Origin: Thermosipho sp. (in: thermotogales)
GTDB lineage: Bacteria > Thermotogota > Thermotogae > Thermotogales > Fervidobacteriaceae
Assembly (NCBI GenBank): GCA_017656335.1
Contig: JACDOA010000009.1
Span: 1 to 48,034, forward strand
Length of the DNA: 48,034 nt
Direction: 5' to 3'
Part shown: positions 19,135-45,519 of the stretch, one piece after another
Numbering within the stretch: position 1 is the stretch's first letter
Layout: each line of letters starts with the position of its first letter
Notes under the pieces: generated by a model
What the model saw: the letters and a program-made list of their open reading frames with translations, nothing else
The model's database searches: none
What the model was told of the DNA's origin: nothing
Position numbers and translations under genes: made by a program

Positions 19135-19210
19135 TCCGGCGTAGCTCAATCGGCAGAGCGGGTGGCTGTTAACCACTAGGTTGGGGGTTCGAGTCCCTCC
19201 GCCGGAGCCA
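19135..19210 (+). tRNA. tRNA-Asn (GTT)
   Basis: Acceptor stem TCCGGCG/CGCCGGA, D stem GCTC/GAGC, anticodon stem GGTGG/CCACT with loop CTGTTAA (anticodon GTT), T arm with GGTTCGAGTCC, discriminator G and encoded CCA. All arms are complete. It is the only tRNA seen in the window. Confidence 0.97.
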
Positions 19211-20083: not shown

Positions 20084-21676
20084 ATGAAAAAGATAATATT
20101 CATATTGATAATTCTTGGGTTGTTATTACTATCGTGTGTTCCATCAAACACTCCTCCATCTAATAATGAAACTAACAACCTTCCAACACAACCTTCTAAT
20201 CCATCTCCATCAGATGGTGCGACCGATGTTTCATTGACACCTTCAATTTCATGGGAAGCATCTGATCCTGATGGAGATTCACTTACTTTTGACATATATT
20301 TTGGCACTGAATCAACTCCAACATTAGTAAAAAGTGATTTAGCAACAAACACATATACACCAGATGTTTTAAATTCATTTACAACATATTATTGGAAAAT
20401 TGTGGCAAAAGATGGTAAAAGTGGGGTGGTAGAAGGACCGTTATGGAACTTTACAACGGGAGTTATAGCCTGGCAAAAAACTCTTGGAGGAAGTAATGGT
20501 GATGAGGCTTATAGCATCCAGCAAACAAGTGATGGAGGATATATTGTTGCTGGGACTACATATTCAAACAATGGGGATGTAAGCGGAAATCATGGGGGGA
20601 GAGATTTTTGGATAGTTAAGCTAGATGATGACGGAAACATAAAATGGCAAAAAGCTCTTGGTGGCAGCAATAATGAATTGGCATATAGCATTCAACAGAC
20701 AAGTGATGGAGGGTATATTGTTGCTGGTAATACAAATTCAAATGATGGGGATGTAAGTGGTAATCATGGAAACTTTGACTATTGGGTAATAAAGCTTGAT
20801 AATAGTGGAAATATTGAATGGCAAAAAGCTCTTGGTGGTAGTGATTATGAATATGCACGTAGCATCCAGCAGACAAATGATGGAGGCTATATTGTTGCTG
20901 GCACTGCATACTCAAATGATGGAGATGTAACCGGGAATAATGTAGGAAATTGCTATTGGGTAGTAAAACTTGATAGTAACGGAAACATAGAATGGCAAAA
21001 AGCACTTGGTGGCAGTAGTGGAGATTGGGCAGATAGTATTCAGCAAACAAGTGATGGAGGGTACATTGTTGCTGGGTACACATATTCGAACGATGGGGAT
21101 GTAAGTGGTAATCATGGAGAAAGAGACTTTTGGATAGTTAAGCTTGATAAAAACGGAAACATAGAATGGCAAAAAGCACTTGGTGGCAGTAGTGGAGATT
21201 GGGCACATAGTATTCGGCAGACAAGTGATGGAGGGTACATTGTTGCTGGGTACACATATTCGAACGATGGGGATGTAAGTGGTAATCATGGAGAAAGAGA
21301 CTTTTGGATAGTTAAGCTTGATAATAATGGAAATATAGTCTGGCAAAAAACTCTTGGTGGTAGTCAATGGGATGAAGCATATAGTGTTCAGCAGACAAGT
21401 GATAGAGGATACATTGTTGCTGGAATTACTTGGTCAAACGATGGAGATGTAAGCGGCAATCATGGAGGAGATGATTATTGGGTAGTAAAACTAGACACAA
21501 ACGGAAACATTGTATGGCAAAAAACTCTTGGTGGTAGTCGGTATGAAACTGCAAGCAGCATCCAGCAAACAAGTGATGGAGGATATATTGTTGCTGGATA
21601 CACAGATTCAAATGATGGTTATGTAAGCGGTAATCATGGATCTCGTGACTATTGGGTAGTAAAGCTTGGGAAATAG
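20084..21676 (+). CDS. lipoprotein with Fn3-like domain and seven 58-residue propeller repeats
   Basis: 530 residues. Lipoprotein signal with lipobox LLSC (Cys about 18), a Ser/Pro linker, a fibronectin/cadherin-like domain at about 35-120 (NPSPSDGATDVSLTPSISWE onward), then seven near-identical repeats of 58 residues, each starting WQK-LGGS and containing SIQQTSDGGYIVAG, SNDGDVSGN and VKLD-NGNI. Seven units suggest a closed seven-bladed beta-propeller on the cell surface. The repeats are so alike in DNA (about 174-bp units) that copy number could change by recombination. Start ATG follows AAGGGGGTTAAAAC. Function unknown; adhesion or carbohydrate contact is a guess. Confidence 0.8.
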   Translation: MKKIIFILIILGLLLLSCVPSNTPPSNNETNNLPTQPSNPSPSDGATDVSLTPSISWEASDPDGDSLTFDIYFGTESTPTLVKSDLATNTYTPDVLNSFTTYYWKIVAKDGKSGVVEGPLWNFTTGVIAWQKTLGGSNGDEAYSIQQTSDGGYIVAGTTYSNNGDVSGNHGGRDFWIVKLDDDGNIKWQKALGGSNNELAYSIQQTSDGGYIVAGNTNSNDGDVSGNHGNFDYWVIKLDNSGNIEWQKALGGSDYEYARSIQQTNDGGYIVAGTAYSNDGDVTGNNVGNCYWVVKLDSNGNIEWQKALGGSSGDWADSIQQTSDGGYIVAGYTYSNDGDVSGNHGERDFWIVKLDKNGNIEWQKALGGSSGDWAHSIRQTSDGGYIVAGYTYSNDGDVSGNHGERDFWIVKLDNNGNIVWQKTLGGSQWDEAYSVQQTSDRGYIVAGITWSNDGDVSGNHGGDDYWVVKLDTNGNIVWQKTLGGSRYETASSIQQTSDGGYIVAGYTDSNDGYVSGNHGSRDYWVVKLGK

Positions 21677-22477
21677 TAAAAATTATCTAAGTTGATCATT
21701 TGAATTTACACTTGAAAGTACAACAGATAAAAAAATCAATTTATTGCCCTTTCTAATCAGTATGGCTTCGGTATACAACCGGGCCATGTTTTTATTTCCT
21801 TATTCTTATCATTGTTTTGTATCATACGGTTTCTTTTCTGCTTATGACAACAGTAAAACCACTCATTTAAATCGAAATTAAGGCCCTCTAAAATATCGAG
21901 ATATGTAATTATTTATATATCTCACTACCGACAAAGGCGTTTATTGACGAAATACATGGTCATAATCCACAACCAGAAAAAACCTTATCCAAAAGATCAT
22001 AAATATACAAAACTAACTTTTCATAATTCATTCAAATACAAGGTAAAAAAAAACAAATTCACAACGTCCATCCACTCATATGCTTATTTAACATATAAAA
22101 TCTACCATCTCCCATTCAATTCTGATTAAAACCATTGTATTTACAGCGTTTTCTGTGATTCTTTTTAATTACTGCTCGGGACGGTGATAATAAATAAGGC
22201 GTTGAACAAATATGGGAATTGGTTCGTTAATCTTGTATATACGTTTACATTTTGTTTTTGACAAGAACATATTTTCTGTCTAATTAACACGATAAGTAAT
22301 TAGTTTTCTTAATGTTCCACGCCGGTGATAAAAATTAGGATATACGTTATAACAAAAAAACGGAGCCTTTTTTGGCTCCGTTTTCTAACTTCTATTATAA
22401 ATTCTATTTCCTAAAACCACAAACAATTGTAATAATATTCTTCAAGAGATATCCTTTAAATTGAAAGTTTGAGATTT
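21677..22477. other. 800-bp intergenic region
   Basis: AT-rich with no supported gene; the short frame at 21944-22129 lacks a ribosome site and family features. It contains a block (about 21845-21955) similar to the tail of the long repeat copy near 47.7 kb, and the shared terminator at 22361-22380. Confidence 0.5.
22361..22380. terminator. bidirectional terminator between the two propeller lipoproteins
   Basis: CGGAGCC, six Ts, GGCTCCG, with TTTT on one side and an A-run (TTTTTTT on the minus strand) on the other. It serves the leftward gene ending at 22478 and possibly the rightward one. Same hairpin family as the tRNA-Asn terminator. Confidence 0.8.
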
Positions 22478-24282: not shown

Positions 24283-24362
24283 GACAGGGGGTGGGGCATA
24301 AATCTCTCCCCTGGGTGCCCGACCGCGGAGTGGGAGGGAGTATCCCTTTCGCACGTTGCAAT
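24283..24362. ncRNA. GC-rich block, candidate structured RNA or element end
   Basis: About 80 bases (from GTGGACAGGGG to CGCACGTTGCAA) are strikingly G/C-rich in an AT-rich region. They can form CAGGGG/CCCCTG, GGGTGCCC-type and GGGA-GTAT-TCCC pairings. No ORF with a ribosome site matches. In AT-rich thermophiles such blocks are often structured RNAs; an IS605-type end is another possibility. Strand and identity are unknown. Confidence 0.35.
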
Positions 24363-24379
24363 TAAACTTTTCCATAATG

Positions 24380-24510
24380 TTAATTTACAAATTGAGCAAT
24401 TACTTACAAGTACATACAAAAAGATTTTTTTACTGTTAATTTACCATATGAAAATGCATTTGAAATAAAAATCTATCAGTTATGTTCATTTTGCATTGTT
24501 AATATACAAT
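24380..24510. promoter_or_regulatory. three iterated TGTTAATWTAC motifs upstream of the primase-helicase module
   Basis: TGTTAATTTACA (near 24381), TGTTAATTTACC (near 24437) and TTGTTAATATACAA (near 24495) recur at roughly 57-base spacing before the small ORF at 24542. Each has TGT...ACA dyad character. They could be operators or replication iterons; similar TTAACA motifs occur at the recombinase promoter. Confidence 0.4.
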
Positions 24511-24541
24511 TAGAACAAACAATAGAAAGGAGGAAAAAAAC

Positions 24542-24823
24542 ATGGGAAGAACAAAAGTATTCTATATTATCGATCCACAGAAATTGTTCGAAGTTTTAAA
24601 ACAAGTAATAAACAAGAAAATATTCAGACAATTCATGAAAGGAATAAGATTTGGCCGGGCAAAATTGATATCTATCATTTAGTCCGGTCGTATTCCAGAA
24701 TATTTAGGTAACAGACTTATCAACTTAGTTGGCACAGATGATTTCGTTCAAGAAGTTGAAATTATTGATCGTGACACACACTCCAAAATTCCTTACTCAT
24801 TGTATAAAACAATTACACATTAA
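24542..24823 (+). CDS. small helix-turn-helix-like protein read through an in-frame TAG
   Basis: A strong site (AAAGGAGGAAAAAAAC) leads ATG at 24542. The frame gives 46 residues (MGRTKVFYIIDPQKLFEVLK onward), then TAG at 24680-24682, and continues in frame to TAA at 24823, 93 codons in all. The TAG falls in what looks like a helix-turn-helix: RAKLISII-TAG-SGRIPEYLGN, where a Gln would fit. Terminated at TAG it would lose the second half of that motif. It lies just upstream of the primase-helicase and is possibly its regulator. Confidence 0.5.
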
Positions 24824-24916
24824 AATGGGGTTAAAAGCAAGCTGCCAGTATCGAAGGAGTCTTTTTCTTGAAAGATATGAATTGAAATATTTAAAAAAGC
24901 TTTAATAAAAACAAGC

Positions 24917-24933
24917 CCCTCCACTAAGGAGGG
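24917..24933. other. hairpin before the primase-helicase gene
   Basis: CCCTCC, 5 bases, GGAGGG, about 35 bases before the start codon. It has no T-run on the plus strand, so it is not a forward terminator; on the minus strand it is followed by CTTGTTTTTATT. It may mask or space the ribosome site. Confidence 0.35.
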
Positions 24934-24967
24934 AGATGATTAAAAAAATAAAGAAGGGGAGATGTTT

Positions 24968-27900
24968 ATGTTCAGAAAAAACCATTATTAGAAATCAAAT
25001 CATGAAAAATTCATTGAAAAACTCATAAATATCACGCACGATCTTGTAACAAATGGCATTCAAGTTTTACCGCTTAGAAATTATGAAAAGCATCCTAATA
25101 TTAAAGAGTGGAACAAAAAGACTTTTCTTTCTAAAGAAATACCTTCCAATGCTACAGGCCTTGCCGTAAAAACTGGGTTACCCACCAAATTAGGAAAATT
25201 AGTTTGTATTGATATTGACGAATATTCTTATTTGATTGTTAAAAATACCGTGGAACTAATAAAAAGAACTCTAGATATTAAAGACATCTCATATAGTGAA
25301 TTAACAACTTCTGGAGGTTATCACTTATTTTTCTTTGTTGACACAGAGCTCCCTATAAAATCCAGGAGCTTCCAAATTGTTGAACCAAAAACTAATAAGT
25401 TAGTAAAAATTGAAATACTCGGAGAGGGAAAAATAGCAGTCATCGCACCTTCACGCGCTAAATCAAAATCGCTAAAAGACGGCAAAAAAAACATTGGAAA
25501 ATATGAAAATCTAACTAAGAACGCTCTAATAGATGCGGATAAATTAACCGAAGAACAATTCACAAAACTTGTAACTACACTGGAACAAATGAATATTAAG
25601 CAAAATACTTTGCAAAATATTAAATACAAGAACGCCCATTATTTTGAAAACAAAGATGAATTCATTATTTTTAACTTCCAATTTGATAAGTATTTGCACA
25701 ACTTGGATTTAATTGAAATCTTAGATAAACTTGGTCTTCAATATGACAATGATAAGTCTAAGAACTATGTAAGAGTATTTTCAATCTATGTTGATGACGG
25801 AAAAAATCCTGATATGATTATCTACAAAAATCCAGAAAATTTCTCATATATAGTGTTTGAAACACACTTGCCAAAAGTATTCACACTTGGAAAACTTATA
25901 TACGACTATTATTTTAATTTTATTGACAATAAAAAGAAAAGAAAAGAGAAATATTTTTGGGAATGGGTTGAAAAAGAGTTTAGATTCAAAAAATCTCACT
26001 CTGAAAATTCGTTTGAATTTTTGAAAACTGAAGGAAAGGAAATTCCGATAAAAAGATATTTAAGTGAAAAACCTGAGATAATCAAAGAAATTTTTAATAT
26101 TCCAGAAAATGTAAACATTATAGCTCCTACAGGTTCTGGAAAAACTTCAACATTGATACATTATGCTTTAAAAAATAATTTAAATGTAATTATAATTCAA
26201 CCATATGCTGTCCAAGTTGCCCAAACTGGTGTTACTTTTAGTATCCCTGCCGTAAATCAGTTCGAGCAAGCTCCTGGATTAGAAATCCGAAAATAGGTAG
26301 AGAAAGAAAAATTTGTTTTTGCCGCTACTTATGATTCGCTAGAAAAGCTTATAAAAATTCTCGAAAAGGTTTTTTCACCTGATCCAATTGACAAAATACT
26401 CAACAATTTTATTTTAATCGTCGATGAATACCACAACTTTGTCACCCAAAACAACTTTAGGTACAATGTATTCGAAAAAATAAAAAATTACGAAAGCAAA
26501 TTCAAAAAAAGCATTTACATAACAGGAACACCTGAATTAGTATTCAAATTTAAAGAAAACAACAAAACATACATTTTTAAAACATCTCCAAAAGAAAACA
26601 ACTACACTATTGTTATGACAAAAGAAATTGAAAACACTCTAATTTCACTGATAAAAAGGAAATTTGAAAATGGAAAAATTGATGTAGTATTACTTGACGA
26701 TAAGAAGAAAATAAAAGCTCTCTAGAAAGTGCTAAGTAACAACTTCCCTGATAAAAAAATTGTAGCAATAAGTGCAGAAGAAAAGGAAAATGAAATTGTG
26801 CGGCATATAATTGAAAATAATGCAATTCCAGAGGATGTTGACATTCTGCTCACCACATCTGTTATTAGCGATGGAATAAATATTTTAAATAAGAACATCA
26901 ATAACGTTTATTTATGTGGAGAATATAATCCATTAAAGAAAATGCAGTTTATAGCCAGATTTAGAAAAGGTGTAAATATGGTGTTTGACATCGGCAAATA
27001 TCATACAAATATTGAAGATATAGATATAGAATTTGAATTTAATAAAATACTCGAAGCCTCCAAAAGTCTTGTTAATGTTGTAAATGATAGCTTTGAAGAA
27101 AATAATTTTGAATTAAAACAATCTCTTTTAAGATCCATTGGGAACGAGTTAATCAGCAAGGTTGAAAAACAGTATGTTCCAAATGAAGAAACTATTAAAT
27201 TTTATACTATGCAGAAACTCTCTCGTTTATTACGAGATGCAAATTTATTGAAAACATTTTTATCAGAATTTTATAATTTCGAACCGAAGATCACGGAACT
27301 GGTAGGTAAAAAACTTGAAGATATAAAAGATTTGATCAAACTTGAAAAGGAAAACGAGAAACAAATTTTAGATTTAATATTAAAAGAGCCTGGTAAATGG
27401 GTTACAGGTTATTTCAATAAAAATGGAAAATTGAAACTTGTAAAAAAAGAACTCAAAAGAGTCTGTTTGTATAGTGAAAGTTCATTAACAGCTGCAGAGG
27501 AAGCACTCCTTAGTAAATCTTTTGTTAAAAATACTATAAGCAAAATAATACTGCTTAAAATGAGATTACATAAGGAAAACATTTCTAAAGAAGATATTGA
27601 GCGAATATCAAAACAACAACTTAGCAGTGCTTATGATTTTCTCGCAATTATTGAAAATGAAATTCTCATGACCATTGACGAAGATATAGTAAAAGAGTAC
27701 TCTGAAAAATACAATAAATTCGAATATATATTAATCAAGTACCTAAAGGAAATCACTCAAAAAATGATAGGAACGACAATGACTCAAAAAGAACTTATTG
27801 AATATCTTACTAAATCAGCAAGTTCACAATTCAATTTGAAACCAAATTCTATAAGAAACGTTGTTAAAAAATGGGTTAAAGCAATGGTAAATTTTAAGCC

Positions 27901-28351
27901 AGCCAAAGTTAATAAAAGAAAAGTATACAAAATAGAATCAATTAGAAGCATTGGGCAATTTCTTAAGGAATTGGGGTTTGAAGATAATAAAATAAATATA
28001 ACAGCGGATTTGCTTATAGCAGATATTGCTTGTAAAGCACTTGATAAACTTAAAAACATTTATAAAGAACTGGGTTTAGATAAAGAACTATTCAGTGAAA
28101 AAGTTAAAAATTTTGTTGAGTTTGCTATCAAAACCCTTGATTTTGATTATTTTAACATTAAATCCTTGGTAAAAGAATATTTTAGCTTAGATCTTGATTT
28201 CTACAACTTTGTTAGTTCCAAAATAGCAGAAGAAGAATACTAGGAATACTTATACGACATAGAAGAAGATTTAGAAATAACTCTTGATTCAGCACCAACG
28301 CGCTCGCTGGAAACTTATGACAAAAAAGTTGGTTCCTTTTTTTTGAATTAA
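24968..28351 (+). CDS. PrimPol-SF2 helicase replication protein with four in-frame TAG codons
   Basis: One frame of 1,127 codons from ATG 24968 (AAGGGGAG 6-7 bases before) to TAA 28349-28351. N-terminal primase-polymerase domain: GIQVLPLRNYEKHP, metal-binding IDID (D82, D84) and TSGGYHLFF with H119. Then an SF2 ATPase: Walker A APTGSGKT (386-393), DEYH (486-489), ITGTPE (motif III-like), TSVISDGINI, and QFIARFRKG (motif VI-like). The remainder is helical. TAG occurs at codons 8, 443, 586 and 1092; there is no TAA, TGA or frameshift. Codon 443 lies between Walker A and DEYH, so strict termination would destroy the ATPase. By my count Gln is 21 CAA and 4 CAG here. This is the replicative protein type of plasmids, viruses and integrated elements. 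It is either TAG-recoded (probably Gln) or a nonsense-riddled pseudogene. Confidence 0.7.
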
Positions 28352-29433
28352 AAATATAAATATTTTCTATTCAAATTTTTGGAACCTTTTTCATCAGGCA
28401 CAAAGATACGTAATTGTGGGGGCAAGTAACAAAGATATATTTACTCAAGAATTCGTTTATACATACCGTCTTTTGAAAATACCTATTTTTACGCAAATAG
28501 CAATTAAGGGCTTATTTCATATGCTTTTGGTAGTATTTTCTTCTGAGTGTTTTTCCATGGATATATAGTAAAAATTACAAAAATACTCTTAGTTTTTTTA
28601 AAAAGAAACGTTTATTCAAATTTTCATGTGCGAAAATGAAAAAATTTGATACTATAACCACGGCAAAACTTTATTTCTTACTATTTATATTTTTAAAAGC
28701 GTTCAATAACATCAAATATTGAAACAGCCAAAAAAACAGTATAAAAGATATTAGGCGGAAATATATCTCTGGATTAGCCAGTAGCATGGAATACAAGTAA
28801 TGTTACAATAATTAAATTGATCTTTATTAGTAACAGTTTAAATTGCTTTATATGTTATTATCTTCCTAATTTTGTTCAACACACTATATTATGAATTTAA
28901 TTGACCATTTATTTATTTGTTGGATTGTTTTTATTAATAGCATAATTTGAACAAAAATTGCCTCGTACTTCGATTTTAAGAAGGGTTAATAGGTAATGAT
29001 ATGTAATATATATCTGCATTAAAATCATGTATATATACGAAAACAAAACGTTCTTAACAAACACACGTCACACTTCATACTATCGGATAATATATATTAA
29101 CTTGTTTATGAAGATATTCAATCTCTTATTATGCTAGTTGGTATAATACCGACTGATAAAAAATTGTTTTTAGCACTTATATAAAAGTAAAGATTTAATG
29201 AGCGATAATTTTACATTTTTGCAACTTTTTCTTTTTCATATTTATAAACAATGATCTATCTATAATCTGTATATGAGTTTTTTTCGCTTTTAAATCAAAA
29301 AATTTGACAATAACTTTCGATTGACACATAATTGCAAATTTTTTATTTCATTTTTAGATTCTTGATTTGTTATAATATTTTTGTCTATAACAGCGTTAAG
29401 GAATTAAGTTCGTTGCTTGTGGGGGAGGGAACT
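28352..29433. other. about 1.1 kb without a supported gene
   Basis: AT-rich, with scattered short frames lacking ribosome sites. A phrase similar to one near 41.13 kb (TTTTTCATCAGGC) occurs near 28387. TATAAT at 29371-29376 may serve the following lipoprotein gene. No tRNA, including an amber suppressor, was seen. Confidence 0.5.
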
Positions 29434-31113: not shown

Positions 31114-34029
31114 TTAGTTCACACCTTTCAATATCTTTAGGATTTTGTTTGCTAAATTAATAACTTCCTTTGATGAAAGTTTATTATTCAATAGAACTTT
31201 TATCATCTGTTTCTTTAACTCTCTTTCATAACGTTCACTGTTTCTCCAATTATTATATTCCTCAAATAACTCTCCTATTTCCTTTGCAACGCTTTCGGCT
31301 GGGAATAATCCTTCCTGTTTTAATATCCAATAAACGGTGAATGTATCAGTTGACATGTTTTTCTCAGCTTGTTCTTTGTTTGCTTCATTAATCTCTTGAA
31401 CTATTTTCTTTAATTCTTCCAATGTTTCTAACGTTGATTTCTGCCTGTTTTTGAACATCTCAGATATTATTTCTGCTTTTTCCCCTATCGATTTTAAATA
31501 AGGTTTCATTTTTAAATTCTTTCTTATTTCCTCTTCAATGCTTCTAATAAGATTGAATACTTTTTCTGTATCGGATGCTTTACTTTCTTCTAGTTTCTTT
31601 AATGTATCTTCATTTATTTCAAAGATTTCAAGAGATGTTTTTATTTTTCCACTATATGTATGTTGTTGAACTAACTGGATTGTTTTTCTCAAAAAATCTT
31701 TATCAATTAAAGTTGATGGTTCATATGCTTCTCGTACTATTCTAAACATTCGAGCTAAAGTATTATAATCTTCCAAGTAAGGTCTCAAAAATGGATCAGG
31801 TGATATGATTTCAAATATTTCTGATAGTTCTTTGAAAATCCGATAAAATTCTTTTCTTTTTTCTTTATTAGAAAATTCTTTCAAAGCGGCTTCGGTTGCC
31901 TTGTCTTGTGATTTACCTTCAATTATTTCTAAATATTTCTTTCCATTTTCCATAAGCGTTTTAAATCTCTCTTTTAATACTTCTATATCGTGAACAACTC
32001 CTGAAATATCTCCTGAATCAAACGCTAGAGCTTTTTCTAAATTATCAAATATTCCGACAAAATCAATAACCAAACCTGATTTTTTCTTTCTTCCTTCTGT
32101 ATCTTCATATGGACGATTAACACGTGCTATTGCTTGTAATAGCACATGGTCTCTCATTGGTTTGTCTAAATACATACAATATAAAATAGGCGCATCAAAT
32201 CCTGTTAAAAGCTTTTCTGTTACTATAAGTATCTTTGGTAATTCATCAGGATTCCTAAATGCTTTCCTTATTCTTTTTTCTTCATCTTCGGAATGATGAT
32301 ATTTCTTTAATAGCAGACTATCATTGTGATTCTGGCTGTATATTACTTCTGAATATTCTGAAGGCAGATATTTATCTAATACTTCTTTATACAATGCACA
32401 CGCTTCACGGTCTACAGCAACTAAGAATGCTTTATACCCCATTGGTTCTATGTAGTCTTTATAATGCTGCGCTACATATTTTGCAATTTTTTCAATTCTT
32501 TCTGGTGTTTTCATCATATTTTTTAAAGTAACCGCTTTGTCAAGTATTTTGTTTAGTGTTTCTACATCGCTCATTCCTTCAGCTTCTGCAAGATCTAGAA
32601 ATTCTTTCTCTAACGTTTCTCTATCTGGTCTTAATTCATTTGGAGCTAGAGTGTAATGTAGTTCAACTGTAGTTCCGTCTTCTACTGATTCGGCTATTCC
32701 GTATTTATCAAGATATCCTTTTGGTGGATCATCAGTTCCAAATATAAAAAATGTATTTTTACCATGAGAGGTTTTATCTATTGGTGTTCCTGTAAATCCC
32801 ATGTATGTCGCATTTGGAAGCGCACCCATCAAGTAATTCCCTAGTTTCCCCCCTGTTGTTCTATGGGCCTCATCTATTAAAACAAAAATATTCTCCCTTT
32901 TGTTTATATTTGCTGGCATATTATCGAATTTATGTATTGTAGAAACAATTAACCCTCTTGTATCATTTGCAAGGAGTGATCTTAGATGTTTTTTCGAATT
33001 TGCAATTTCTACATGCTCTATTCCACAAGAAGATAGATTACTGAAAAGTTGGGCTTCCAATTCGTTTCTATCTACTAACATTATGACTGTTGGATTTTCA
33101 AAGATAGGATTTTCAAGTATCCTTTGCGCTGTTACTATCATTGTATATGTTTTTCCTGAACCTTGTGTATGCCAAATGAGAGCGCGTTTCCTATCTTTAT
33201 CTTGTGCCCTTTGTATTAACTTATTTACTGCACGCATTTGATGGGGTCGTAATATTACTTTTCGTAATTCATCATCTTGACGTGTAAAGAGAATAAAATT
33301 ATGCAAGATATCTATAATTCGTTGTGGTTCAAAAAATGTTTTTACCAATTTTTCATATTCTTTTTCCCCTGATTCTGTTTTCCAATTGAATACTGATTTT
33401 AACGAGAAGTTCCATGTGGCTGAATAAAGGAAATGTATGATATTTGTTACTATGAATAACTGGAAAAGTGTCATTGCCTCTGGTGTTTCTCTGTGATATC
33501 GTTTTACCTGTTCTAATGCTTCTGTAATTATAGATTCACGTTCTGTGTTATCTCCAAAAAATTTTGCCACAGCTTTTGTTTCTACAAACAATATGGGGAT
33601 ACCGTTAACAAGAAATACGACATCATATCTGTTTGTATGCATACCATTGGTGTATGAAAATTCATCTGTAACGTGAAAAATGTTGTTACCAGCATTTTTA
33701 TCAATAATTTTCACGTTTCTTTCTCTGTTTTCTTGTGGTACAAAAACTGTTTTTAATCCTTTTAAATATTCCCAAGCTTGTAAATTGCCTTCTATATTGT
33801 TTGGTAGTAATTCTAACCGGGTTATTAATTCATTAATGACAACAGGATTTGCAAATTCACTGTTTAATTTTGATATCTGTTCAATAAATACATTTTTGAA
33901 AATAAGGCCTATTTCTCCCCCACGTAATCGTAACGCTTCTTTGGAATCTATATATTGCCATCCGATTTCTTTTGCGTATTCAATTAGTGGGCTTTGGACG
34001 GCAGACCTTTCCCCCCCGAGCCTTGGCAT
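31114..34029 (-). CDS. hsdR: type I restriction endonuclease subunit R
   Basis: 971 residues. N-terminal PD-(D/E)xK nuclease with YDVVFLVNGIPILFVETKA (Asp, then E-x-K), then the SF2 translocase: Walker A HTQGSGKT, DEAH in VLIDEAHRT, MGFTGTPI, and IARVNRP (motif VI). The C-terminal third is helical and binds the methylase complex. Start ATG follows GAGGTGAGTTAAA, one base after the hsdS stop. With hsdM and hsdS it forms the restriction complex that translocates and cuts unmodified foreign DNA. No lesions are seen. Confidence 0.95.
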   Translation of the reverse strand: MPRLGGERSAVQSPLIEYAKEIGWQYIDSKEALRLRGGEIGLIFKNVFIEQISKLNSEFANPVVINELITRLELLPNNIEGNLQAWEYLKGLKTVFVPQENRERNVKIIDKNAGNNIFHVTDEFSYTNGMHTNRYDVVFLVNGIPILFVETKAVAKFFGDNTERESIITEALEQVKRYHRETPEAMTLFQLFIVTNIIHFLYSATWNFSLKSVFNWKTESGEKEYEKLVKTFFEPQRIIDILHNFILFTRQDDELRKVILRPHQMRAVNKLIQRAQDKDRKRALIWHTQGSGKTYTMIVTAQRILENPIFENPTVIMLVDRNELEAQLFSNLSSCGIEHVEIANSKKHLRSLLANDTRGLIVSTIHKFDNMPANINKRENIFVLIDEAHRTTGGKLGNYLMGALPNATYMGFTGTPIDKTSHGKNTFFIFGTDDPPKGYLDKYGIAESVEDGTTVELHYTLAPNELRPDRETLEKEFLDLAEAEGMSDVETLNKILDKAVTLKNMMKTPERIEKIAKYVAQHYKDYIEPMGYKAFLVAVDREACALYKEVLDKYLPSEYSEVIYSQNHNDSLLLKKYHHSEDEEKRIRKAFRNPDELPKILIVTEKLLTGFDAPILYCMYLDKPMRDHVLLQAIARVNRPYEDTEGRKKKSGLVIDFVGIFDNLEKALAFDSGDISGVVHDIEVLKERFKTLMENGKKYLEIIEGKSQDKATEAALKEFSNKEKRKEFYRIFKELSEIFEIISPDPFLRPYLEDYNTLARMFRIVREAYEPSTLIDKDFLRKTIQLVQQHTYSGKIKTSLEIFEINEDTLKKLEESKASDTEKVFNLIRSIEEEIRKNLKMKPYLKSIGEKAEIISEMFKNRQKSTLETLEELKKIVQEINEANKEQAEKNMSTDTFTVYWILKQEGLFPAESVAKEIGELFEEYNNWRNSERYERELKKQMIKVLLNNKLSSKEVINLANKILKILKGVN

Positions 34030-34030
34030 T

Positions 34031-35299
34031 TTAACTCACCTCGAGATCTTTTACTCTTATTTTTCCTGTCATAAGGTTATGGAGCATTGATTTGAATAGT
34101 TCTTCAAGTGCTTTCTTTTTGTTCTCTTCTGCTTCTATCTTTTTGTCTATTGTTGATAAAATATTTGCTATTTTTTTCTGTTCCTCTAATGAAGGAAAAG
34201 GAATTTTGAATTTTTTTAAAGATGACCAGTTAGTTCGTGGATGATTGACGCCAGTCATTGACCTTGTAGCATATTCCAAAAAAAATGATGAATGGACTAA
34301 ATAAGCTAGATATTTAGGATTTATAATATTTCTTTTAGGATTTATAACTATGATATCAGTAGAACAAATACCTTTAAATTCAGCTAAAGCCCCTTTGTCT
34401 AAGTATGGCCTAAGTTTAGCATAAAGAATGTCTCCATTATAAAATTTTAATTTTGTGCTTTTTACTTCTTTTGAATATCCAAATTTTTCTAACTTTATTT
34501 TTCCAGGAATAATATGTTCAAGTCCTATGTAAATAGCCTTTTCATTTTTTGGATCGACCTTTTCACTTCTTTTAGAAGCTACTTCTCCTAACTCAACCAA
34601 TTTCCATTCTTTTCGTAATACACCTATTTCCGTTTCTTTCAATTTAACTTTATTAACTTCATTCAAAGGCACGGAACCATATGTAAAGAGGTGTTTCATA
34701 AGGGATTTTTTAAGTGCTTTTGTTGCTTCTATAACCTGTTCTGTTTTTTCTTTTGCTTCTTGAATGGTTGAAAGAACATATGCTATTTTTTTCTGTTCGT
34801 CGAGTGGTGGAAGTGGGATTTTAAAGTTTTCTACAATTCCTTTGTTTATATTTTTTTGAGTACTTTGAATATTTTGTCTTTGCAATACTTGGGAATTAAA
34901 TTTAAGCAGATATGCACCGTAAATATTATTAAGTCTTTCATTTGGTATTATTGCTAAAATAGCTTGGTTAGTAGCAACGGGAATTTTATTTATTGCCGTC
35001 TCTCCAATTGTAGCGTACATAGACAATAGCAATGAATTAGGTGGAACAATCCAAGCATTTGAATTGTTTAACCCGTCTTGAGTGATTGTTTCCTTTGTTT
35101 TCTTAAGATATAACCCGCATGAAGTTAAATCCTCAATAAGGGCGAAAGGTATATCTCCATTCCAATATTCTTTAACAGACCTTTTTGGAGTTCCCCCTGC
35201 TTTTAACTTTTCCGAAACATCTTTTATTTTAACAACTTCCCAATCCTCTGGTATCAATCCAATTTCTGTTTCTTTCATTCCATCTCTTTCTTCTTTCAT
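34031..35299 (-). CDS. hsdS: type I restriction-modification specificity subunit S
   Basis: 422 residues with two target-recognition domains, each ending in the conserved helical spacer with PLPPLDEQKKIAYVLSTI and FPSLEEQKKIANILSTID. TRD1 is about 10-150 and TRD2 about 225-370; each recognises half of a split DNA target. The target sequence cannot be read. It starts one base after the hsdM stop. An internal ATG seven codons later (MKETEIGLIPEDW) is an alternative start closer to the family's usual beginning. Confidence 0.93.
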   Translation of the reverse strand: MKEERDGMKETEIGLIPEDWEVVKIKDVSEKLKAGGTPKRSVKEYWNGDIPFALIEDLTSCGLYLKKTKETITQDGLNNSNAWIVPPNSLLLSMYATIGETAINKIPVATNQAILAIIPNERLNNIYGAYLLKFNSQVLQRQNIQSTQKNINKGIVENFKIPLPPLDEQKKIAYVLSTIQEAKEKTEQVIEATKALKKSLMKHLFTYGSVPLNEVNKVKLKETEIGVLRKEWKLVELGEVASKRSEKVDPKNEKAIYIGLEHIIPGKIKLEKFGYSKEVKSTKLKFYNGDILYAKLRPYLDKGALAEFKGICSTDIIVINPKRNIINPKYLAYLVHSSFFLEYATRSMTGVNHPRTNWSSLKKFKIPFPSLEEQKKIANILSTIDKKIEAEENKKKALEELFKSMLHNLMTGKIRVKDLEVS

Positions 35300-35300
35300 A

Positions 35301-36821
35301 TCACATCAACCCCATTTGTTTAAGTATTACATTTAACTTCTCATCTGCATTTTGTCTTTCTTCTTCAGCTTCTTGCAATAAAACAATTGCTTCTTCAAGG
35401 GGCAACGTATTATCTTCTCCATTTTGTATTACATATCGCGAAGGGCTGAGGTTATAATCATTCCTTACTGCTTCATCTTTTGTTATAACTTTACTTATAC
35501 CTTCAACTTCTTTAAATTCTTTATAGATTTCTGCTATTTCACTAATCGCATCTTCTGGGATATAGTTTTTTGGTCTTCCTTTCTCATACATCTTTGAAGC
35601 ATTGATGAGTAAAATCTTTTCTTTTTCTTTTTTATTCTTGTTAATCACTATAATAATCCCAGGTGCAGATGTATTGTAAAATAAGTTTTCAGGTAGTAAG
35701 ATCACGGTTTCAATTAAATCATTTTCAACAAACTGCTTTCTTATATCTCTTTCTCTATTTGAACCTTGATTCCCTGATCCTCTTGAAACGGCACCTGTAT
35801 CAAGAACAACGGCCATCCTACCATTATCTTTTAACGAAGCATACATGTGTTGTATCCAACCCCAATCAGCCGAGCTTGATGGTGGATAACCAAATACAAA
35901 TCTATTATATGGATCATTTTCGTAAACTTTTTGCTCAAATTTCTGATTCCACATAGGATTTGCAACAACTATATCAAATTTTTTAAGTGAACCATCAGCA
36001 TTTTTGAAGGCAGGGTTAATCATTGTATCTCCTAATGCTATATTTGTTTCTTCCATATTATGAATTACCGCATTCATTTTAGCCATAGCATATGTCCCAT
36101 GTAAAATTTCTTGTCCATAGAACTTTAATGGATTTATTTTGTTAAGGTTATCTTTATATTTTTCTTTGAAATGGAGGTAACTCTTAATTAGCAACCCACC
36201 TGAACCTAAACAAGGATCGTATATTTCTTCACCTTCAGATGGATCAACTATCTTTGCAATTAAAGTTGCCACTTCTCCTGGAGTATAAAACTCTCCTGCA
36301 CTTTGACCGGAACCTTCTGCAAACTTCCTAAGCAAGTATTCATATGCCCTTCCTAAAATATCTGGATCAACATCATTTAATCCAAGTCTGTGCTTATTCA
36401 GTGTATCAATTAGGGCTCTTAGTTTATCATCGCTGATTATTCTTTGACCAGCTGTTGTGGCATTAAAATCAACCATATTGATAACTCCCTGTAATTTAGG
36501 ATTTTCTCTTGCAATATCTCTTACAGCCTTTGTTAAGTATTCACCCAATCCTGTGCTTTGTTTCATTATGTTGCTCCAACGTGCATTTTCAGGTAAATAA
36601 AACCAAACAAGGGAATGATCTTGTTCGATTAATTCGATAGCAATTTCTTTGCTTCCATATTCTTCAGCTAGTTTTCCTATTTCATCATCAAAAACATCTG
36701 ATAATCTTTTCAAGAAAATGAGTGGCAATATATAATCTTTATATTTAGGTGCATCAATTTCGCCTCTTATTTTACATGCAGCTTCCCATAGCCAATTTTC
36801 AAGTGTTTTAATATCTAGCAC
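35301..36821 (-). CDS. hsdM: type I DNA methyltransferase subunit M
   Basis: 506 residues. N-terminal HsdM_N helices, then the N6-adenine methylase: SAM motif DPCLGSGGLL, catalytic ANPMWNQ in place of the usual NPPF/Y, and GEFYTPGEV before it. The NPMW variant occurs in this family. It starts at GTG 36819-36821 with AAGGGGGATATTT upstream. First gene of the hsdM-hsdS-hsdR-peptidase operon; TATAAT on the minus strand near 36922 may be the promoter. Methylates the target to protect self DNA. Confidence 0.94.
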   Translation of the reverse strand: MLDIKTLENWLWEAACKIRGEIDAPKYKDYILPLIFLKRLSDVFDDEIGKLAEEYGSKEIAIELIEQDHSLVWFYLPENARWSNIMKQSTGLGEYLTKAVRDIARENPKLQGVINMVDFNATTAGQRIISDDKLRALIDTLNKHRLGLNDVDPDILGRAYEYLLRKFAEGSGQSAGEFYTPGEVATLIAKIVDPSEGEEIYDPCLGSGGLLIKSYLHFKEKYKDNLNKINPLKFYGQEILHGTYAMAKMNAVIHNMEETNIALGDTMINPAFKNADGSLKKFDIVVANPMWNQKFEQKVYENDPYNRFVFGYPPSSSADWGWIQHMYASLKDNGRMAVVLDTGAVSRGSGNQGSNRERDIRKQFVENDLIETVILLPENLFYNTSAPGIIIVINKNKKEKEKILLINASKMYEKGRPKNYIPEDAISEIAEIYKEFKEVEGISKVITKDEAVRNDYNLSPSRYVIQNGEDNTLPLEEAIVLLQEAEEERQNADEKLNVILKQMGLM

Positions 36822-37879: not shown

Positions 37880-38596
37880 TTACAAAAACTTTTTATGCGG
37901 TTTAAAATCAAACAAGAATCCTACTACTACGCCAAAAACCAGAAAACTATCCGAGGGTTTTATAATGATATCTTTGTATTTTCTATTTTCAGCAGCCAAA
38001 ATTCTCTCATCATTATTTTGTATATACCATCTAACTCCAAATTTACCATTCAATCTATACAAAATTAAATCACCATTTCTAAAAGCTATATTTTTATTAA
38101 TAAGTAATAAAGAACCTCTTGGAATGTAAGGCTCCATTACATCATAATTTAGTCTTAAAGCCATATGAATTTTAGTTTCAATGTCTATAAACAAGTTTAA
38201 ATATTTTTTTAATTCTAATTCATTTTTATCATCGGAGGTATGTTCAGGCGGTATAGAAAACATGTAAACCGGAATCTTTCTACTTACAGGTTTTTTTATA
38301 ACTTTTTTCACCGTCTTAAAATTTTGAATATCTCCACCTAAAAAACCTAACGTCACTGAAGATGTATCATCAGAATATACGTGGTATTCTTCGGTAGTTT
38401 CTTCATTTGTAAAAAAGTATGTTATTGAAACACCCAATTCTTTTGCAATCGCTTCAAGCACATCTATAGGTGGAATAACCCTTCCGTTTTCATAATGTGA
38501 AATTGATTCTCTTGAAACTCCTACTCTTTTTGCAAGCTCTTCTTGACTTAACCCTCTTTCAGATCTAAGATTTTTTATCTTTTCTCCAATATTCAT
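37880..38596 (-). CDS. CI/LexA-like repressor: XRE helix-turn-helix + S24 peptidase-like domain lacking the Ser
   Basis: 238 residues. HTH at about 5-60 (LSQEELAKRVGVSRESISHY), linker, then an S24-type domain (about 135-235). The nucleophile motif normally reads D-S-M-E-P; here it is YDVMEPYIPRGS, with Val in place of Ser, so RecA-driven self-cleavage is unlikely. Start follows AAGGAGAATATTATT. It is divergent from the serine recombinase across a 190-base region with palindromes, the layout of a phage or element immunity region. It probably represses the recombinase; induction may be by ligand or partner rather than cleavage. Confidence 0.85.
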   Translation of the reverse strand: MNIGEKIKNLRSERGLSQEELAKRVGVSRESISHYENGRVIPPIDVLEAIAKELGVSITYFFTNEETTEEYHVYSDDTSSVTLGFLGGDIQNFKTVKKVIKKPVSRKIPVYMFSIPPEHTSDDKNELELKKYLNLFIDIETKIHMALRLNYDVMEPYIPRGSLLLINKNIAFRNGDLILYRLNGKFGVRWYIQNNDERILAAENRKYKDIIIKPSDSFLVFGVVVGFLFDFKPHKKFL

Positions 38597-38787: not shown

Positions 38788-38943
38788 ATGCTTTAGGTAT
38801 TAGCAGAACTGCTTTATGAACTTTCCAAAGAAGGTATTTTAAAAATTTCCAAAACAAATTCCACTCAAAGTAAAAGTAGCTCGCCCAATTCTTATCCGGA
38901 AACAGTTAATTCCACAACCCCGGGGGGTGAAACCCATGACTGA
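38788..38943 (+). CDS. small ORF with TAG as third codon, coupled to the serine recombinase
   Basis: AAAGGAGGTTATAGT leads ATG at 38788. The reading is M-L-TAG, then VLAELLYELSKEGILKISKT and a Ser/Thr/Asn-rich tail to TGA at 38943, 51 codons. The stop overlaps the recombinase start by 8 bases, a coupling arrangement that only works if ribosomes pass the TAG. A Gln at position 3 would give a normal amphipathic helix. If TAG terminates, only a dipeptide is made. Confidence 0.45.
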
Positions 38944-40426
38944 AATCTCACACTATCCTTTAAAAGCTGCAGCATATGCTAGATATTCCTCAAATAATCA
39001 ATCTGAAACATCAATCGAAGCGCAATTACAAGCTATTGAAGAATTTGCAAGACAAAATGGGTATATTATTATTGAAAAATACATAGACAGGGCAAAAAGC
39101 GCAAAAAGTGATGAAAGACCAGAATTTCAAAGAATGATTTCGGATGCCAAAAACAAAAAATTTGACGCAATAATAGTTCATAAATTAGACAGATTTTCAA
39201 GAAGAAGGCGCGATGCCATAATCTATTCTGAGCTTCTCAAACAAAACAATATAAAACTTGTTTCAGTAACTGAACCTTTTTCTGATGACCCTTCAGGAGA
39301 ATTACTAAAAGGCGTAATAGAAGTGGTAAATGAATGGTATATAAACAATTTGAGACATGAGATAAAAACTAAAACAAAAATTGTTGCAATGAAAGGGTAT
39401 TTTCTAGGTGGAGTTCCACCCCTAGGATATGATTTAGAAGAAGTAAAGGACGAATATGGAAACACTAGAAAACGTTATGTAATAAATGAAGAAGAGGCTG
39501 AAATTGTTCGTGAAATTTTCAGACTATATTCTGAAGGATTCAGCTTCAAAAAAATAGCTAATTATTTAAACAATAAAGGATATAAAACCAAAAAAGGGGG
39601 TCATTTTAAAGCTTCTTCTATAGCAGAAATTTTACGAAACAAAAAATATGGAGGAATTTATGTTTATAACCAGAGCAAACACGGTACAAGGATAAGGCAT
39701 CCACATGACGAGATAATTGAAATTGAAGGACTAATTCCTGCAATAGTAAGCAAAGAATTATTTGAATTAGTACGACAAAAATTGAACAAAAATTCTAGAA
39801 CATTAACTAAAAAGCACAATTATTTGCTTCTTGATATTATTTATTGCGGAGATTGTGGCAGCAGGATGACAGGTTCAGGAGGAAAAAAACCAAAATATGT
39901 ATGCCAGAATTGGAAAAATAACAAAAAAGGCAGATATGTAGGTGTAGGAAAACAAAAAGTAGAACAATTTGTGATCTCATACCTTAAAAATGTACTACTT
40001 CCAATAGACAAGATAGATTTTGAAAAGTTAACAGAGGAATTAAATAGAATCGAAGCAGAACGAGAAAGTTTATATGAAAAGAAATTTGAAGAGCTAATGA
40101 ATAAAAAAGCAGAGATTGAGAAACAAATAGAAAATATTACTAAGGCTATTTTAAGAGGTATTTTGACTGATAAACTGGAACTAAAATCTAAAGAACTAGA
40201 ACAACAACTTAGAGATATAAACAACGAAATTAAAAATCTTAGGAACCAAGCTCTAAATAAATACTCCCCTGAGCAGGTCAAAGAAATGTATAAATATTTT
40301 CTACTGCAACTTAATAGTAATAATGAGCTTTTAATTGAACGTGCAATCAAGAAATTGATTTCAAAAGTAATCGTATATCCAAGAGGATATATCGACATCA
40401 AAACACGTGATTTTCTTAATAGCTAA
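38936..40426 (+). CDS. large serine recombinase (site-specific integrase/resolvase)
   Basis: 496 residues. Resolvase catalytic domain at about 8-150 with the nucleophile Ser in ARYSSNNQSETS and the LDRFSRRRRD motif; recombinase domain about 165-290; zinc-ribbon-like CGDCGSRM...YVC with the fourth Cys apparently missing; then a long coiled coil (about 365-440) and tail. This is the layout of phage and element integrases such as phiC31 or TndX. ATG 38936 follows GGGGGTGAAACCC; an upstream in-frame GTG lies in the ribosome site. It probably integrates or excises the surrounding element. The att sites were not found. Confidence 0.93.
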   Translation: MTEISHYPLKAAAYARYSSNNQSETSIEAQLQAIEEFARQNGYIIIEKYIDRAKSAKSDERPEFQRMISDAKNKKFDAIIVHKLDRFSRRRRDAIIYSELLKQNNIKLVSVTEPFSDDPSGELLKGVIEVVNEWYINNLRHEIKTKTKIVAMKGYFLGGVPPLGYDLEEVKDEYGNTRKRYVINEEEAEIVREIFRLYSEGFSFKKIANYLNNKGYKTKKGGHFKASSIAEILRNKKYGGIYVYNQSKHGTRIRHPHDEIIEIEGLIPAIVSKELFELVRQKLNKNSRTLTKKHNYLLLDIIYCGDCGSRMTGSGGKKPKYVCQNWKNNKKGRYVGVGKQKVEQFVISYLKNVLLPIDKIDFEKLTEELNRIEAERESLYEKKFEELMNKKAEIEKQIENITKAILRGILTDKLELKSKELEQQLRDINNEIKNLRNQALNKYSPEQVKEMYKYFLLQLNSNNELLIERAIKKLISKVIVYPRGYIDIKTRDFLNS

Positions 40427-42296: not shown

Positions 42297-42347
42297 GGAA
42301 GTCATAAATAAATGCTTAATAAAACTCAGAGGAAGTGGGAGAGCAAT

Positions 42348-43244
42348 ATGAATATAAGAAAGACATTCCTTAAAATATTTCCTTATTTATCATCTATTTT
42401 GGCAGGAGTTATTTTTTATCTTTTAGGCATTCAATTTAAAGATTTTAGAGACCTTTTTGTAAATATATCTGCCGCTTTCATAGCAATACCTTTTATATAT
42501 CTTTTTTATCAAATAGCAGAAAAATATTCTAAGAAAAAATTGAATAAGGAAATCATTGATTATGCCAAAATGCAGATTGATAGGGAGATACTTTCATTAA
42601 TCAATCAATTGTTTAAGATAGTATATCCAATAGAAGAAAGGGATTTCACACTAAAAGGTATTAATAGATTTCTTTCCTTAAAAAGAGACAATCTTAAGAA
42701 AATTATTTCTAAAAAAGAATACTTAGGTTTTCAAGTATTCAAGAAATGGGATGTTGTTGAAAACAATTTACATGATATTTTAAAGAACCCATATATTCTA
42801 AATAGACTAGAAGATGAACAAATTATTGTTATTATACGATTATTGAAGAGCATAAGATATTTGGAACAACTACAAAAAATAAAAGATCTTTATGTTGAAA
42901 CAACGAAAAAAGCCTCATCATTTAAAATTGTAAGTGGAAAAGATCTAAATGAAGAAAATGTTAAATTCTTAAACAGATATTTGTTATTAAAAGATTTAGG
43001 AGATAATAAATTCTTAGTAGTGGATTTTGGCGATTTCCCTCAATATAACGTAGATAAACTTTTAATAATTTTTAACATAAACAACAAATATATAGACATA
43101 TATGTTGATGCAATATTGGATATAGTAAATGAAATAAATAATTGGGTAGATTTAACAGATAGAGAATTTTTAATTGATACTAAAATGTTTCGACTTGGTG
43201 TTTATTCAATTGATAACCAAATACATGATGGGGAAAAATTATGA
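42348..43244 (+). CDS. two-TM membrane protein with cytosolic helical domain (cassette-like unit 1)
   Basis: 298 residues from MNIRKTFLKIF; GGGAGAGCAAT precedes this ATG, while the in-frame ATG 36 bases earlier has no site. Two transmembrane helices (about 8-25 and 32-53), then a charged, mostly helical cytosolic region of about 240 residues. No family recognised. It is flanked by the inverted attC-like arms, 80 bases after the recombinase remnant. Small-TM proteins with soluble tails are common among defence effectors, but nothing in the sequence proves that here. Confidence 0.6.
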   Translation: MNIRKTFLKIFPYLSSILAGVIFYLLGIQFKDFRDLFVNISAAFIAIPFIYLFYQIAEKYSKKKLNKEIIDYAKMQIDREILSLINQLFKIVYPIEERDFTLKGINRFLSLKRDNLKKIISKKEYLGFQVFKKWDVVENNLHDILKNPYILNRLEDEQIIVIIRLLKSIRYLEQLQKIKDLYVETTKKASSFKIVSGKDLNEENVKFLNRYLLLKDLGDNKFLVVDFGDFPQYNVDKLLIIFNINNKYIDIYVDAILDIVNEINNWVDLTDREFLIDTKMFRLGVYSIDNQIHDGEKL

Positions 43245-43257
43245 TCTACTTAAAGAA

Positions 43258-43276
43258 GTTTAACTGTGTTTGGCAC
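43258..43276 (+). repeat. attC-like left half after unit 1
   Basis: GTTTAAC (matches RYYYAAC), one base, then GTGTTTGGCAC, an 11-base perfect complement of GTGCCAAACAC at 42273. The following GC-rich DNA up to about 43375 contains a GCAC/GTGC hairpin but no clear GTTRRRY partner. Confidence 0.5.
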
Positions 43277-43418
43277 TCTGCGGTGCTTCAGCCCCTATTC
43301 AGCTCACTTTACAGGAGGATATGTATCTCGCTACCGTTCACCCAAATTTGCTCTGCTATTATCACGTAAACTTCACATATCCTATTAATTTTGTATACAA
43401 TTAAGGAGGCGGAAAAAG

Positions 43419-44351
43419 ATGAGGTATGATTCTCCATTATTTCAAAGTGCTTTAGAACTGTTTGCACATGCAATAGAGCATTTTAATAGAGGTGATGAGA
43501 AAGATAGAAAATTTGTAATTTTGCATTTAGCTAATGCCGTGGAATTGATTCTTAAGGATTTCTTACTCGATCTTGGAGAATCTATCTATAGAAATCCAAA
43601 AGAAACAGTAAACATATGGGAGGCTATACGAAAATTACAAGAAAAAGAAAGTAAAGAGGAGAAGATTATAATTCCCTCTACAAATAAAATAGAAATTCTT
43701 ATAGATGAGAGAAATGCATTACAACATAGATACGGGTTTCCAAATGAAATCACAACAATATTTCATATGGATAACACTTATAATTTTTTAAAAGAATTTC
43801 TTAGAGAAAACTATGGATTAGAGATTGATGAAGTAATAAAAGATTTCTTTCCAGAAGAAGAATTTGCCTCTTTCCAACTTAGAAGGAAAATATCCACAGA
43901 AAATGAACTGGACAAACTTATAAAACTAGCAAAAATTCATCCGGTCGGCGCGTTATTATCTGCTTTTGCTTATTTAGAAAGTCAATTACTGGAAATTAGA
44001 GATATAATAATGGAAAATTCTCGGTCACAAGGATTACTCGAAGAAAATAGAGAAGTTTTAAGAGACATTAGATTTTTAACAATGAAATTGATGAGATTTG
44101 AGTATCTTCCTAAATTGATGAGAATTTATGAAATTCCTGTTACTGAAGAAGTCGAAGAAATGCTTTTTAAATTACGCGATATTAAGAATTCTGTCTCACA
44201 AGGAAGGGAACAAATCACTCAGAAAGAAGCAAAAGAATTAATTGAATTTATCAAATCTATAGAGCCAAAAGTTAAAGAGTTAAAAGAAAAAGTAAAAATG
44301 GATCCTAATTTAATACTAAACAGTGAAAAAATTAGGAGGAGAACGATATGA
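43419..44351 (+). CDS. HEPN-domain protein, putative ribonuclease (cassette-like unit 2)
   Basis: 310 residues. The N-terminal domain (about 5-135) has the layout of HEPN proteins: FAHAIEHFNRGDEKDRKFVI, LANAVELILKDFLL, then the catalytic R-x4-H in ERNALQHRYG. The C-terminal half (about 150-310) is helical with a coiled end. HEPN domains usually cleave RNA in toxin-antitoxin and phage-defence systems. No separate antitoxin is adjacent, though the neighbouring units could supply one. AAGGAGGCGGAAAAAG precedes ATG. Confidence 0.78.
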   Translation: MRYDSPLFQSALELFAHAIEHFNRGDEKDRKFVILHLANAVELILKDFLLDLGESIYRNPKETVNIWEAIRKLQEKESKEEKIIIPSTNKIEILIDERNALQHRYGFPNEITTIFHMDNTYNFLKEFLRENYGLEIDEVIKDFFPEEEFASFQLRRKISTENELDKLIKLAKIHPVGALLSAFAYLESQLLEIRDIIMENSRSQGLLEENREVLRDIRFLTMKLMRFEYLPKLMRIYEIPVTEEVEEMLFKLRDIKNSVSQGREQITQKEAKELIEFIKSIEPKVKELKEKVKMDPNLILNSEKIRRRTI

Positions 44352-44480
44352 TTTCATTTTTAACTGCTCACAACATGCGGCTATCTGGTTCGAGTTTTCA
44401 AACATCACCCAAATCGCCTACAGCGACTTCAGATACCCAGATACCCACCGGAGGGTTAGTTGGCATAACAGTTTTGGAGG
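44352..44480 (+). repeat. GC-rich spacer between units 2 and 3 (attC-like, weak)
   Basis: Much richer in G/C than the genes, with complementary arms TATCTGG (near 44378) and CCAGATA (near 44438), a TTTTTAAC near the left end and GGGTTAGTTGG near the right end. The cores do not match the attC consensus well. Confidence 0.35.
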
Positions 44481-44487
44481 GCAGAAA

Positions 44488-45519
44488 ATGAAAATTGCTA
44501 TATTTGGTAGTTGAAGTGAAACCGGAAAAAAATGGAAATTGCGGGGAACTAAAGAAGAATTTATAGAAGCTTGCATGATGATTGGTAGAAGAATTGCTAA
44601 TTATGAACATACAATTATTGTTGGTTCGTCATCTCCAAATACTGCAGACAGATATGTTGTGAAAGGTGTTATTAAAGAAGCCAAAAATATGAATATTCGA
44701 CATCCTGTAATTAATATCTTAAGACCCTCTGATAATCTGTACCCATTTAACGAACTAGTGAAAAAATATCCAAAAATTTTTGGCGCTTATTTAACAACAC
44801 AGCCTTGGTGGGATGGTGCACATCTGATTGCTATAAGAGAAGCGGATGCAGTTCTTACAATAGGTGGTAGAAAAGGGACCTATCTTGCTGGTTTATCATC
44901 CATAATTGCAAAAAAGAGATTAGTTCCTATAGGTTCTTTTGGAGGATCTTCAGAAAAGATTCTCCAGATATTAGAAAGAATGACTAGCGAAATTGAGCAA
45001 AAGAATAAAATCAGAAGGTTAAATTCCCCATGGAACAATCAGATAATTGATATTTCTTTTGAGCTTTTAGGAATTACTGAGGTACCCAGGGTTTTAATAA
45101 TTCATGGCAGAAGCAATGACTGGCAGAACTTAAAGAATTATTTAGAAAATATATTAAATCTTCGTAAAGTTATAATAATGGAGGAGGAATTCGTAGGTGT
45201 GGGCAAAACGTTGCCGGAGAAATTTGAGTACTTAGCGTCAAAAGTTGATTGTGTAATTGCTGTAACAACCCCAGATGATATTGGAGCATTAAAAAGCAAA
45301 CAAGATTTTAAGTTACGTGCTCGTCAAAATGTATGGTTAGAAGTGGGATGGTTCTGGGGACGTTTGGGTAGAGAAAGAGTCATGATTTTATGCAAAGAAA
45401 ACGTAGAAATTCCATCTGATATTCAAGGAATAGAGCTTTATTTTTATAGAAAAAAACCCGAAGAAAAAGCTAAAGAAATTAGACTTTTTATTGATAAGAT
45501 TAAAAATGGTGTTGTATGA
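44488..45519 (+). CDS. SLOG-TIR (CAP12/Pycsar-type TIR) effector with in-frame TGA (cassette-like unit 3)
   Basis: Read from ATG 44488 (TTTTGGAGGGCAGAAA before it) there are 344 codons with one TGA at codon 9: MKIAIFGS-TGA-SETGKKW. N-terminal SLOG/LOG-like Rossmann domain (about 1-180): IIVGSSSPNTADRYV, then LTIGGRKGTYLAGLSS. C-terminal TIR-like domain of the CAP12/Pycsar-effector type (about 200-340): VLIIHGRSNDW, VDCVIAVTTPDDIGA, RARQNVWLEVGWFWGRLG with the NADase Glu, then IPSDIQGIELYFY. Such fusions are expected to sense a nucleotide signal through SLOG and deplete NAD+. A TTG at 44539 could start a shorter form, but that loses the first SLOG strand. No cyclase or ThsB-like partner is seen. 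Confidence 0.75.

Follow-up and report, generated by a model that had tools for sequence, protein, structure and literature searches.

Organization of the TAG-interrupted operon

The analysed window, 48,034 nucleotides of a Thermosipho sp. contig (JACDOA010000009.1), contains on its plus strand a two-gene operon (24542–28351) interrupted by in-frame TAG codons. The larger gene, rep (24968–28351, 1,127 codons, ending in TAA), encodes a PrimPol–SF2 helicase replication protein and begins at ATG 24968 behind a well-placed Shine-Dalgarno sequence (GGGGAG). The first-pass annotation had described rep as a single frame broken only by TAG, and translation of the frame bore this out: the TAGs at 24989, 26294, 26723 and 28241 (codons 8, 443, 586 and 1092) are its only breaks, with no TAA, TGA or frameshift. 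Coding periodicity is kept in all three large segments between the TAGs, and no ATG, GTG or TTG restart codon lies between TAG8 and the primase domain.

Pfam placed a Prim-Pol domain (PF09250) at residues 25–165 of Rep and a ResIII/DEAD domain at 371–523, while PHROGs returned one primase family and one replication family. The motifs of the PrimPol domain (CIDIDEY, SGGYH and GEGKIAVIAPS) and of the helicase (APTGSGKT, DEYH, TGTP, TTSVISDGINILN and QFIARFRKG) are intact, including those on either side of TAG443 and TAG586, as the first-pass annotation had proposed. A two-sequence AlphaFold model of Rep was set aside (pLDDT 33).

The small upstream gene (24542–24823, plus strand, 93 codons, TAA end) follows a strong Shine-Dalgarno sequence (gaaaggagg) and carries a TAG at codon 47 (24680), the fifth in-frame TAG of the operon, which had been missed earlier. 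As the 35-codon tail of Rep beyond TAG1092 might be open by chance, the count could be four rather than five. The small gene had no match in Pfam, PHROG or PADLOC, and its status as a gene therefore rests on its frame, its Shine-Dalgarno sequence and a single-sequence AlphaFold model (pLDDT 77), which is mainly helical and places the TAG inside helix 39–48. A fold search gave insignificant matches only, several of the weak ones being repressor helix-turn-helix (HTH) proteins; judging from this model, the product may be an HTH repressor.

Three near-identical direct repeats of TGTTAATWTACMA (24378–24511, plus strand; copies at 24378, 24434 and 24497, spaced by 56 and 63) lie just 5′ of the operon and are likely to be an operator or iterons; 0.25 matches are expected per 48 kb for this pattern, which was picked after inspection of the sequence. 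Between the two genes, a hairpin-forming GC segment (24910–24960, plus strand) contains a duplicated GGGAGATG. Beside this duplication, within 24910–24968, CCCCTCC is able to pair with either GGAGGG or the rep Shine-Dalgarno GGGGAG, and we infer that such alternative pairing may control translation of rep. An AT-rich inverted repeat (GGTTCC...GGAACC, 28331–28386, plus strand) spans the rep stop codon and is a candidate terminator or origin hairpin (hairpin signal for 28270–28400, z = −1.86). From the end of rep onwards there is ~1 kb with no clear gene and neither a tRNA nor an Rfam match (28352–29331, plus strand), probably the right part of the captured replicon or filler.

Upstream of the operon, a GC-rich and hairpin-rich motif (GGGGGTGGGGC...CTCCCC...GGGAGGGAGTAT, 24286–24347) gave no Rfam match. 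It is 82% conserved in a genome of the same family (L138 7165–7226) and adjoins a small minus-strand gene in both genomes. We rejected the idea that it is a degenerate tRNA, given that the small gene which its conserved copy precedes in the related genome is an unrelated one.

The operon lies in a genomic island

The operon is part of an island that extends from a tRNA-Asn(GTT) gene at its left edge (19135–19210, plus strand) to at least a CI/LexA-like repressor (37880–38596, minus strand) and a large serine recombinase (LSR; 38927–40426, plus strand), and that also includes a type I restriction-modification system (31114–36821). We found no second att copy in the window and no convincing att repeats for the operon itself. 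The same-family genome, which belongs to another genus, has a related tRNA-Asn island (L138 4400–16450). This island carries the same lipoprotein gene and the GC-rich motif as well as ParA and homologues of the LSR and CI genes, and it holds a different gene where the replicon sits here. The tRNA-Asn site thus looks like an integration hotspot.

Two further features were noted. At 42312–45519, a protein with weak PDC-S19 similarity, a TIR-domain (CAP12/Pycsar-type) effector and a 310-aa protein likely form a defence cluster. The segment at ~21695–21800, repeated at 75–82% identity in many contigs of a same-genus genome (G001) and in others, is possibly a dispersed repeat.

The codon usage of the operon ranks at the 0.7th percentile among host genes. 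The LSR (1.0%) and HsdR (1.7%) rank similarly low, and such a rank does not prove origin. Internal TAGs are a different matter. Seven other island genes (HsdR, HsdS, HsdM, the LSR, two of the lipoproteins nearest the operon and the lipoprotein at 20084; ~3,390 codons) contain none, where ~14–16 would be expected at the rate of the operon, indicating that the use of internal TAG is a property of the operon and not of the island.

Internal stops of the operon are TAG only

All five internal stops across the two genes are TAG and no frameshift occurs, while both genes, the only two available for this comparison, end in TAA. TAG accounts for ~22% of the stop-making single-base changes in the operon's codons, so that under random single-base nonsense five TAGs out of five have P ~5e-4, and the four of rep alone ~2.4e-3; these values apply to an operon that was selected for study because of its TAG pattern. 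The earlier count of 21 CAA to 4 CAG glutamine codons in rep was reproduced. If the stops had arisen by C-to-T change, all five would have fallen at CAG (10 original sites in the operon) and none at CAA (24 sites), for which P ~9e-4.

These figures bear on the possibility that the operon is an ordinary pseudogene, in which neutral decay produced stops that are TAG by coincidence. Decayed replication genes are common in variable islands, and the operon sits in just such an island amid foreign genes, in a genome where we found no CUA tRNA to read its TAGs. In simulations of neutral decay with an assumed indel ratio of 0.1, the accumulation of five stops was accompanied by an expected ~76 missense changes and ~10 indels, and 0 of 3,000 simulated decays ended with five TAGs. 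With the same assumed ratio, zero frameshifts over ~3.7 kb have P ~1e-3. Inspection of 74 Rep motif residues revealed no obvious loss, for which P ~0.03 under decay. Together with the kept periodicity and the absence of mixed stops, these results make coincidental decay a rather unlikely explanation.

A scan of 1.015 Mb (57%) of the genome, with antisense-shadow filters applied and its listed candidates assessed by eye, revealed no further gene in which one stop codon recurs mid-frame with long coding sequence on either side. A sequencing or assembly artefact would agree with the operon's presence in one genome only; it would also require five errors that all create TAG and all fall within a single operon, sparing the rest of the 1.015 Mb, and we give it almost no credence.

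Homologues and the residue at the TAG sites

The homologues of the Rep helicase are replication genes from a Methanocaldococcus plasmid, from Clostridioides phages and plasmids, and from an Ignavibacteriales metagenome-assembled genome (MAG). They share 25–31% identity with Rep and are standard-coded, with no internal TAG. The Methanocaldococcus homologue covers most of Rep, and the best homologue is the Ignavibacteriales protein. Truncated or unrelated sequence after the TAGs had been named beforehand as evidence against recoding; instead, the alignment runs through TAG443 and TAG586. We found no close relatives of the operon genes in 198 and 390 related genomes or in genome-contig and viral-contig collections, where the matches were distant helicases only, and neither gene turned up in the phylum's other genomes (0 of 103).

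To keep the residue alignment from being led, the TAGs were set to X. Codon 586 falls opposite Lys (Methanocaldococcus homologue), Gln (Ignavibacteriales MAG) and Ser, codon 443 opposite Tyr and Ala, and codon 1092 opposite Glu, where the C-terminal alignment is weak. Substitution scoring at the aligned sites left Glu, Lys and Gln tied, with Tyr and Ser below. The earlier proposal that TAG stands for Gln is hence compatible with the alignment, through the Gln at 586 in one homologue, but is not singled out by it, as Glu and Lys tie with Gln and the other sites are mixed. On this analysis the residue is probably polar, and Gln would be the most likely choice on phage precedent alone.

The tie, the Lys opposite TAG586 and the long match to the Methanocaldococcus protein would also suit a donor in which TAG encoded pyrrolysine or a Lys-like residue, such as a Pyl-decoding methanogen. 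The best homologue, however, has Gln at TAG586, and the present genome contains no PylS above the curated cut-off; nor was a tRNA-Pyl found. We know of no use of pyrrolysine by M. jannaschii itself. A donor of this kind appears highly improbable.

The present cell uses TAG as a stop

The host genome (1.79 Mb, 33 contigs) encodes full-length RF1 with the PST tripeptide and full-length RF2 with SPF. Among solved structures, the best match of RF1 is the RF1 chain 1rq0, which we take to be that of Thermotoga maritima, and the gene content suggests a placement in Thermotogota. Host genes said to stop at TAG at 18981, 21674 and, on the minus strand, 14386 do so, and TAG terminates 60 of 409 long ORFs (~15%) in a 628-kb sample. 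We rejected host-wide recoding of TAG, which truly functions as a stop; those further TAG candidates that we inspected are gene junctions.

We then looked for a means of reading UAG. No CUA-anticodon tRNA was detected in the window, where ARAGORN and Rfam gave tRNA-Asn only, or among 44 tRNAs genome-wide, and a CUA pattern search of the genome returned no tRNA beyond the known ones. tRNA-Ile(GAT) and tRNA-Ala(TGC) were not found either, which shows that the assembly lacks part of the tRNA gene set. Neither of the two signs of altered decoding that the first-pass annotation had pointed to, a CUA tRNA and a modified RF1, was therefore found in this incomplete assembly. Its suggestion of an element-borne suppressor fared no better, since the window and genome hold no CUA tRNA, RF1 is full length and the tested island genes are free of TAG.

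The TAGs might nonetheless be decoded in the present cell, giving full-length Rep despite RF1, if a helper phage or plasmid, or DNA missing from the assembly, encoded a suppressor tRNA. The gaps in the 33-contig assembly leave room for such a tRNA, and an intact gene implies recent selection. On the other side stand the negative tRNA searches, the lack of internal TAG in the other island genes, and the cost that a strong suppressor would impose where ~15% of long host genes end in TAG. We judge present decoding to be unlikely.

A weaker form of decoding, regulated read-through by near-cognate tRNAs, would hold Rep to trace amounts. Conserved in-frame stops under purifying selection have been reported for bacteria (PMC7918605), and TAG8 and TAG47 lie early, where they would be suited as gates. 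Read-through at ~1% for each of the four rep TAGs, however, would leave ~1e-8 of the product. The route through 4-bp anticodon stems, proposed for UGA reading in one report (PMC13092985), was not seen, the anticodon stems being of the normal 5 bp in 44 of 44 tRNAs. Regulated read-through is thus very unlikely.

A proposed history of the operon

With stops that are TAG only, a second gene that shares them, intact motifs and atypical codon usage, the operon behaves as if it had been shaped where TAG was a sense codon. Sense TAG is well supported as part of the operon's history. As an ability of the present cell it is not supported, because RF1 and RF2 are intact, TAG is used as a stop and no CUA tRNA was found. 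The first-pass proposal of TAG recoding in a mobile element accordingly holds for the pattern in the genes and fails for decoding here by a suppressor that the element itself carries.

Our preferred account, to which we assign about an even chance, is that a foreign minimal plasmid replicon evolved under sense UAG, was captured by a standard-code genome and is silent there for want of a suppressor. The failure of the searches to turn up a close relative and the standard code of the distant homologues count against it. The operon would comprise a possible repressor, a PrimPol–SF2 initiator, repeats and a terminal hairpin. It would have evolved with UAG translated into an amino acid, whether by a TAG-recoded host or by a suppressor tRNA alongside, and would then have entered the tRNA-Asn island of a Thermotogota-like bacterium that uses the standard code. 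In the present cell, RF1 would cut Rep short at 7 residues and the small protein at 46. Given such termination and no suppressor, the replicon would stay silent, or 'amber-locked', unless a UAG suppressor enters. That it is actively maintained in this state, with replication switched on only upon entry of a suppressor (e.g. with a recoded phage), is a further step that we consider unlikely.

The known cases of stop-codon recoding in mobile DNA come from large phages, most of which encode suppressor tRNAs themselves. No recoded small replicon was found in the open-access library searched, which lacks most subscription journals. If the preferred account is true, the capture of a recoded replicon by a cell with the standard code would directly show that DNA can cross from one genetic code into another. 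The operon would then point to a UAG-reading donor, or a helper element, that has yet to be seen.

Comparison with known systems

In crAss-like, Lak and phAss-1 phages, whole genomes are TAG-recoded, often with a suppressor tRNA of their own, according to published reports (PMC7886860, PMC8346664, PMC10607447). As described there, these phages resemble the operon in having in-frame TAGs within otherwise intact genes; unlike them, the operon is a two-gene replicon without phage structural genes or a suppressor. A homologous SF2 helicase occurs on the Methanocaldococcus jannaschii plasmid NC_001732, in the Clostridioides phages and plasmids, and in the Ignavibacteriales MAG (CAIMOS010000177). 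The MAG protein has a primase-like N-terminus (Pfam AEP-TOTE), and the Methanocaldococcus protein has one as judged by eye only.

The pRN1 family combines the repressor orf56, the PrimPol-helicase orf904 and a downstream stem-loop origin (PMC4234260). The operon shares with it the order of a small gene and then a PrimPol-helicase and the PF09250 primase domain, and its candidate 3′ hairpin may correspond to the stem-loop. It differs in its location in a bacterial chromosome, its five TAGs and the putative nature of its repressor. Moreover, the helicase of pRN1 belongs to SF3, whereas that of Rep is SF2 (ResIII/DEAD, DEYH), and the operon is therefore pRN1-like in layout rather than a member of the family.
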